This document shows, piece after piece, positions 56,747-58,769 of a DNA stretch of 64,000 nt. The notes beneath the pieces were generated by a model. The model was given only the letters and a program-made list of their open reading frames with translations, was not told the DNA's origin and searched no databases. Every line of letters begins with the position of its first letter. Position 1 is the first letter of the stretch. A program made the position numbers and the translations under genes. This DNA is from Mumia flava (lineage in GTDB: Bacteria; Actinomycetota; Actinomycetes; Propionibacteriales; Nocardioidaceae), in contig NZ_PGEZ01000001.1 of assembly GCF_002797495.1 (NCBI RefSeq), positions 1,364,001 through 1,428,000 on the forward strand, in the 5' to 3' direction.

Positions 56747-57529
56747 TCAGACCAGACCGACCACCGAGACCGCGAACACCACCGGACCGCTCAGCGCCAC
56801 CGGCAGCACACAGCCGATCGCCCACCGACCCGGCGGCAAGGCGCCCCACCGCTCGCCGGCCGCCACCCCCAGCCGGGCGGACGCGGCGACCGCAGCGAGC
56901 GCACCGGCCCCGAGCGCGACCGGCAGACCCTCGGAGGCCGCCACCACGACGCCGGCGAGGGCGGCCGCGGTCACCAGCCAGAACGCCACGTACCCCCGTC
57001 GTCCCAGCACGAGGACGACCACACAGAGCACCGCCCCGACGACCAACGGCGCAGGACGGGACCCGGCGGCGGCGAGCCAACCGCACGCCAGGACAGCGAG
57101 AACCCCGCACAGGAGGGTGTCGGCGAGCGCCGGGACCGTCCCCGCCACCGGCCGGGAGAGCCGGGTGACGAACGACACGATCACGAGCACACCCAGGCCG
57201 ACACCGGCGCCCGCGAGCGACCCGCTGCCGGCAACGCGTACGTGTCCCGCCGCGCCGTCGAGGACGGACGGCGCCAGGGTCGTCGCGAGCGTCACCGCAC
57301 CGGCGGTCACGACGGGCAGCGCCTTGTCCGGCCGTACGACGAACGCCCGCTCCTCCCACGGTCGCGGTGCGAAGGCCGCGAGCGCCTGGACGCCGAGCAG
57401 GACGACCGCCAGGGCGAGCTCGCCGAAGCGAGACGCCGCGGCCAGGGCCACCACCAGCAGCGCGGCGACCAGCCGGGGCGCGACCTGGACGAGGAGAGGT
57501 GCGCGCGCCTCCTCACGGACCCGGCTCAC
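56747..57529 (-). CDS. Polytopic membrane protein of unknown function
   Basis: The 260-residue protein has seven or eight hydrophobic segments, for example LVAALLVVALAAASRFGELA, AGVGLGVLVIVSFVTRL and GYVAFWLVTAAALAGVVVAA. It has few charged residues outside the N-terminus. I do not recognise the family. A membrane protein in the same place precedes thiX in mycobacteria. Its GTG overlaps the MoaD-like stop (GTGA), so the genes are coupled. Confidence 0.75.
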   Translation of the reverse strand: MSRVREEARAPLLVQVAPRLVAALLVVALAAASRFGELALAVVLLGVQALAAFAPRPWEERAFVVRPDKALPVVTAGAVTLATTLAPSVLDGAAGHVRVAGSGSLAGAGVGLGVLVIVSFVTRLSRPVAGTVPALADTLLCGVLAVLACGWLAAAGSRPAPLVVGAVLCVVVLVLGRRGYVAFWLVTAAALAGVVVAASEGLPVALGAGALAAVAASARLGVAAGERWGALPPGRWAIGCVLPVALSGPVVFAVSVVGLV

Positions 57530-57924
57530 CGGGGCACGGCCGAACCTGATCCCCCGACGGACAGGACATCGGGCCGCACCTGCGACCCGGCAGCACCCGA
57601 AACTTCCGAGCTGTGTCGACCGTCGCCTCCCGCGAAGGGCGGCAACAGCTCGACGGTCGCCCCTGGCGGGACGTCGACGGTCTCGGGGTCGGCTCCGCCG
57701 ACCGGCTGCTCGCCGACCAGGACCGAGCAGATCTCGAGCACGCGCGTGAACCGGTCGTTGCCGCTGTGCAACGCGCGCACCGCACCGAGCACCTGCGCGA
57801 CCGACCCCGCCTCGACGTGATCCACCTCACGTCCTGCGGCGGCCCGAGCGGCAGCCCAGTAGCGCACCATGACGGCGTCGCTGCGAGCAGCGTCACGGTT
57901 ACCGGTTGGTGATGCGTCGGACAC
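57526..57924 (-). CDS. MoaD/ThiS-family sulfur-carrier-like protein with C-terminal extension
   Basis: The 132-residue protein has the ubiquitin-like MoaD fold: VMVRYWAAARAAAGREVDHV, VLGAVRALHSGND and LLPPFAGG. In carriers the final GlyGly (here 99-100) must be the C-terminus to form a thiocarboxylate. Here 32 further residues follow (DGRHSSEVSG to the end). Either it is trimmed or it is no longer a carrier. CACAAT ends 7 nt before GTG 57924, suggesting a leaderless message; ATG 57870 is an alternative start. Confidence 0.8.
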   Translation of the reverse strand: MSDASPTGNRDAARSDAVMVRYWAAARAAAGREVDHVEAGSVAQVLGAVRALHSGNDRFTRVLEICSVLVGEQPVGGADPETVDVPPGATVELLPPFAGGDGRHSSEVSGAAGSQVRPDVLSVGGSGSAVPR

Positions 57925-57937
57925 ATGCCCTATTGTG
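57906..57937. promoter_or_regulatory. Overlapping divergent promoters for glnR (+) and the MoaD-like operon (-)
   Basis: On the plus strand TTGGTG (57906-57911), 19 nt and TATTGT (57931-57936) point to glnR. On the minus strand CACAAT (57937-57932) lies 7 nt before GTG 57924. The -10 boxes overlap on the sequence TATTGTG, so only one can be used at a time. Confidence 0.55.
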
Positions 57938-57949
57938 GGGGAAGCAATG

Positions 57950-57980
57950 AAGCCCTGGGTTACAGCCCTGGGCTTTTTTT
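57950..57980 (+). terminator. Intrinsic terminator inside the glnR 5' leader (attenuator candidate)
   Basis: AAGCCCTGGG (57950-57959) and CCCTGGGCTT (57966-57975) form a 10-bp stem with one T-T mismatch and loop TTACAG. Seven T residues follow (57974-57980). It lies about 10-40 nt downstream of the inferred start site and 21 nt before the glnR ATG. Such a T-tract is rare in this GC-rich window. Confidence 0.85.
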
Positions 57981-58001
57981 GTACCCAGGAAAGGTTCCCT
58001 G

Positions 58002-58769
58002 ATGTCCACCTTGCTCCTGCTGACCCCGAGCACGCAGTCCTCGATCGAGGTCCTGCCTGCTCTGGCGCTGCTCCCGCACCAGGTCAAGATCCTCCCGCCC
58101 GAGGCGAGCGCCCTGCTCGACGCACCGTCGTGCGATGCGGTGCTGATCGACGGCCGCACCGACCTGGCCCAGGCGCGCGGCCTGACCCGCCTGCTCAAGA
58201 CCACCGGGGTCGACGCGCCCCTCGTGCTGATCGTGACGGAGGGCGGCCTCGCCGTCGTCGCCGCCGACTGGGGCATGGACGACGTGATCCTCACCGCCGC
58301 CGGGCCGGCGGAGGTCGAGGCCCGGCTGCGGCTGGCGATCGGACGCGTCTCGGCCGAGGTGGGGAACGCCCCCGACGCCCACGTGATCAAGTCCGGCGGC
58401 CTCACCGTCGACGACGTCACGTACACCGCGAAGCTCGACGGCCGCTCGCTCGACCTCACGTTCAAGGAGTTCGAGCTGCTCAAGTTCCTCGCGCAGCACC
58501 CGGGCCGGGTCTTCACCCGCCAGCAGCTGCTGCAGGAGGTCTGGGGCTACGACTACTTCGGCGGTACGCGCACCGTCGACGTGCACGTCCGCCGGTTGCG
58601 CGCGAAGCTCGGGCCGGACAACGAGACCCTGATCGGCACCGTCCGCAACGTCGGGTACCGCTTCGTCGCGCAGAGCCGCGACGGGCGCCGCGAGACGAGC
58701 GAGTCCGGCGCGCGCTCCGAGGCCGAGGCCACCGACGAGAGCGAACGAGCCGCAGCCCTGCGCCGCTGA
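58002..58769 (+). CDS. glnR: GlnR-type nitrogen response regulator (OmpR family, atypical receiver)
   Basis: The 255-residue protein has a degenerate receiver domain, with Asp50 in [17 protein letters not shown] but without the usual acidic pocket. A winged-helix follows ([50 protein letters not shown]). GlnR is an orphan regulator with no kinase that controls nitrogen-assimilation genes. The Glu/Ser/Arg-rich tail is variable. The position next to the rhodanese/thioredoxin set and mshD matches mycobacteria (Rv0818). AGGAAAGG precedes the ATG. Confidence 0.93.

Follow-up and report, generated by a model that had tools for sequence, protein, structure and literature searches.

Introduction

Intrinsic terminators located in leaders (attenuators) generally consist of a GC-rich stem and a U tract, placed between the promoter and the start codon and oriented with the gene. 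In pyrG-type attenuation, which operates in Gram-positive bacteria, the terminator is close to the start site and almost no RNA precedes it. Conserved leader RNAs of Streptomyces and its relatives are also represented in Rfam by Actino-pnp and similar cis-elements. The element that we describe here in the leader of glnR resembles each of these systems in part: it has the same architecture and orientation as attenuators in general, it shares with the pyrG type the near absence of upstream RNA, and like Actino-pnp it is a conserved leader RNA of Streptomyces and related genera.

In Streptomyces and its relatives, nitrogen assimilation is governed by GlnR, which also influences the production of antibiotics. 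A review of GlnR covers the mapping of the start site in 1991 and several regulators that bind the promoter (PMC10704036); the word "leader" was not found in its text, and this review, like the papers examined, explains glnR expression in terms of regulators that bind the promoter. A terminator conserved within the leader of glnR, if true, would add a further layer of control. No report of the element was found in the literature searched, which was mainly open-access and without supplements, and an earlier report is possible. In the Term-seq study of S. clavuligerus a 3′ end had to lie at least 70 bp past the start site to be counted as premature (PMC8269248), a limit that places the glnR element outside that class of premature ends.

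The glnR Locus and Its Leader Hairpin

The window, that is, the whole 64-kb stretch of Mumia DNA that was analysed, carries glnR at 58002..58769 on the forward strand. Its product, the global nitrogen response regulator, was recognised by PF21695 GlnR_1st (E 2.1e-43) and PF00486, and its nearest solved chains are 8hig and 8hih. The start codon is the ATG at 58002, and AGGAAAGG (57987..57994, +) is, from its sequence, the likely ribosome-binding site. The promoter has the −10 hexamer TATTGT (57931..57936, +), which fits TANNNT, the consensus of mapped Streptomyces −10 elements (PMC6742748, PMC8780764), and from which transcription would start at about 57943.

Several features were observed upstream of this promoter. 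A CACATG box (57922..57927, +), noted by eye in a comparison of the upstream sequences, lies 3 nt upstream of the −10, and CAYRTG-like boxes (catgtgggcTATTCT) recur class-wide a few nt 5′ of the glnR −10s; such a box may belong to the promoter, or its conservation may partly reflect the start codon of the gene on the opposite strand. The sequence GGTTACCGGTTGGTGAT at 57898-57914 is mostly retained in the sister species and resembles a GlnR or PhoP box. The divergent gene (57526-57924, −) looks MoaD/ThiS-like by eye, and a 115-residue piece of it gave no match in Pfam or NCBIfam.

Between the promoter and glnR, on the same strand, the RNA folds into a hairpin at 57949..57976 (GAAGCCC-U-GGGU-UACA-GCCC-U-GGGCUUU) of −17.1 kcal/mol, with a z of −3.7 relative to dinucleotide shuffles. 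The stem has 11 pairs in total, 7 + 4 flanking a single U·U mismatch, with a UACA loop, and it covaries in relatives. The U7 tract (57974..57980, +), whose U-rich character is conserved in relatives, is the predicted 3′ end of a short leader RNA, near 57980. The leader thus contains the two components of an intrinsic terminator, a stable GC-rich stem-loop and a U-rich tract directly 3′ of the stem, in the position of an attenuator. The earlier note had located both the hairpin and the T7 correctly, but the 10-bp stem that it described in fact has 11 pairs and is interrupted by the mismatch. The T7 is the sole run of at least six T or A within the window, where 0.01 runs of seven or more are expected, and GGGCTTTTTTT has a single occurrence in the 4.4-Mb Mumia genome. 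It also holds, as the note had said, that nothing upstream on the forward strand needs termination, because the neighbouring gene is on the opposite strand.

Scanned with a generic terminator search, the window gave no more sites than its shuffles did, and a pattern search for generic Streptomyces terminators performed no better than its reversed control. Since the generic scan showed no excess, the case for the glnR element rests on the comparison across genomes.

Occurrence of the Element in Other Genomes

The hairpin was found in the glnR leaders of Mumia, Aeromicrobium, other Nocardioidaceae, and Streptomyces, and also in those of Sinosporangium and Planotetraspora (Streptosporangiaceae), Jiangella, Haloactinopolyspora, and Kribbella. 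Many Nocardioides, whose glnR leaders are short, lack it, and some Aeromicrobium leaders retain the hairpin with a tail of only 2–4 U; the element is therefore dispensable.

A covariance model, R1, was trained on leaders from families other than that of the window and run on 296 genomes, giving 66 matches at E < 2e-4, with one match in most of the matching genomes. Of these, 61 were placed relative to glnR, 53 in fetched sequences and 8 by coordinates (all except G190, G228, G245, G252, and G269), and every one immediately precedes the gene in the same orientation. R1 also detects Kribbella and one Nocardioidaceae leader (L011), both outside its training set. Among the weaker matches, 17 were fetched; L170 (E 0.003) proved to be another leader of glnR, and the other 16 had no glnR nearby, several weak matches away from glnR resembling ordinary terminators with a similar tail (GGGTCCTTCTGTCGTTTTT). 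When the genome of the window itself was searched with a second model, R2, the glnR leader was the sole match (E 9.7e-9; the next, 0.56). R2 has only 6 pairs because the Nocardioidaceae alignment A2, from which it derives, is off by one in places.

The U-rich tail was examined in the same leaders. The 10 nt after the stem contain 5.4 U in the Streptomyces-type group and 4.7 U in the Nocardioidaceae group, while successive stretches past the tail contain 1.0–2.1 U per 10, the T frequency being 14%. Tails with at least 4 U are present in 38 of the 43 representatives, and the richness is restricted to the 3′ side, with a mean of 5.1 U per 10 versus 2.5 A per 10 on the 5′ side. In the Streptomyces-type group U occupies position 8 in 25/25 representatives and position 9 in 23/25. 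In mapped intrinsic terminators of Streptomyces, 3-4 of the first 10 nt are U (PMC12207403).

The same place and strand, the covarying stem described below, and the U-rich tail, recurring in many genera, strongly support the assignment, made already in the earlier note, of the terminator-like hairpin to glnR itself and not to another gene as a stray terminator.

Pairing in the RNA

The all-lineage MAFFT alignment A1 misregistered the groups, and two group alignments together with a swap test were used instead. In alignment A4, 94.7% of the cells pair and 8 of the 13 pairs show changes on both sides, counts that lean towards the model because its structure guided the alignment. None of 500 shuffles attained these values, and sliding the partners strongly weakened the signal. 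For the swap test, which is independent of the model, 43 stems were cut by hand and each 5′ half was combined with 3′ halves from other genomes: own halves folded better (combined z −10.7, 0/5000; z −5.9 in Nocardioidaceae and −6.1 in the other group), z values that overstate the evidence since related sequences are not independent. At the fourth pair, 18 of the 43 representatives have C-G, 21 have A-U, and 2 have G-C, a variation among lineages that is hard to explain without pairing.

These data bear on two other explanations of the element. According to one, the DNA would be an inverted repeat at about +5 to +35 bound by a repressor or activator, and PhoP, AfsR, MtrA, and ScbR have indeed been reported at the glnR promoter of S. 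coelicolor (PMC10704036, PMC6988585); compensatory changes in the lower stem, one-sided bulges, and the one-sided U-richness point instead to RNA, and we take a DNA operator to be highly improbable. According to the other, a functionless GC-rich hairpin would lie next to a T run by chance, as could be expected from the lack of excess over shuffles in the generic scan and from the many Nocardioides without the element. Against the R1 matches upstream of glnR, the covariation, the swap test, and the U-rich tail, a chance origin is hardly credible.

The Terminal Loop and the Rest of the Leader

In the Streptomyces-type element the loop is fixed at six bases, of which the fourth is always G, and the pairs that close it are invariant too; simple termination does not need such a loop. 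GGGC-loop-GCCC hairpins were also seen near glnR in some further families, with weak model scores (mostly E 0.04–0.4). Both observations would be in line with a terminated RNA of about 40 nt that works in trans, by itself or through its loop, as a small RNA; most Nocardioidaceae, including Mumia, do not retain the loop, and we consider this function very unlikely.

Three further candidates were tried and rejected. A leader peptide could begin at the ATG at 57947, but this ATG is missing in the sister species L003 and L004, and the frame stays open to 58816. The pairing of CCUGGG with CCCAGG, which in Mumia might act as an antiterminator or sequester the Shine-Dalgarno sequence, is likewise missing in the sister species. 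Extension of the stem by pairing of the 5′ flank with the tail was no better than in swapped sequences (z −0.8 and 0.0).

Other features of these leaders are lineage specific. Several Streptomyces (L080, L085, L103, and L108) have a short ORF starting MG(K/E)R just upstream of glnR, whose end apparently overlaps the start of glnR in the sequence ATGA, and this arrangement suggests that it is translationally coupled to glnR. Six leaders of family f21 (L194, L201, L210, L219, L234, and L235) share a conserved block of another kind, GTTTCATGCCCATGACGGTCGTGAGAC, and close to the ribosome-binding site they have GGGTCGACGCTGCCCC.

Distance between the Promoter and the Stem

TANNNT was present in 42 of the 43 representative glnR leaders, being missing in L081, and it lies 6–13 nt from the stem, with Kribbella as an exception at 29. 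When the distance is taken from the hexamer to the core of the stem, 18 of the 19 leaders in the window's family have 13 nt and L027 has 12; in other families the usual value is 9 nt. Judging from the −10, transcription should start about 2–6 nt from the stem in most leaders, so that almost no RNA would precede the stem in which an aptamer or antiterminator could form.

A stem that begins so near the inferred start of transcription and keeps a nearly fixed spacing from the −10 is also what would be expected of a 5′-end stabiliser, a hairpin that shields the mRNA from 5′-end-dependent RNases and has no role in termination. In some leaders the 5′ flank can pair with the tail (UAUGCAA/UUGCAUA in L009), which would suit this function, but the swapped sequences extended equally well, as given above, and the conserved U-rich tail would be superfluous in a stabiliser. 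On balance, a stabiliser seems unlikely.

Proposed Mechanism

The leader element is probably an intrinsic terminator, located close to the glnR promoter, that ends a share of the transcripts after about 40 nt. RNA polymerase would begin about 6 nt 5′ of the stem, as deduced from the −10, and the hairpin would fold upon leaving the polymerase; at the U-rich tail, some polymerases would release an RNA of about 40 nt and others would read through into glnR. Such partial termination would lower, and probably tune, the level of GlnR, and many glnR transcripts in many actinobacteria may be cut short before the gene. The analysis establishes the hairpin, the U-rich tail, the covariation, the nearly fixed spacing from the −10, and the association with glnR; that polymerases terminate in the cell, and in what proportion, is inferred, and read-through may respond to a signal, conceivably nitrogen. 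Such a signal, if there is one, would act more likely through factors for elongation or termination, the initial bases of the RNA, or the loop of the hairpin than through an upstream antiterminator.

It is also conceivable, though improbable, that the first 45 nt of the transcript form a class-wide RNA switch on GlnR, in which a protein or RNA would read the terminal loop (GGGC, six bases with the invariant fourth G, GCCC) and so choose between termination and read-through, with no aptamer, peptide, or antiterminator.

Comparison with Known Systems

Leader attenuators in general differ from the glnR leader, in which the stem begins only a few nt past the point where transcription would start and neither an aptamer nor a T-box, a leader peptide, or an antiterminator pairing was found. 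Unlike in the pyrG type, no common G run with a following C is apparent at the start of the glnR leaders, and their 5′ bases vary between genera. In contrast to Actino-pnp and similar cis-elements, the glnR element matches no Rfam family, the search giving none above the gathering threshold. By comparison with these systems, the glnR element is probably a further leader terminator, and its position is unusual.
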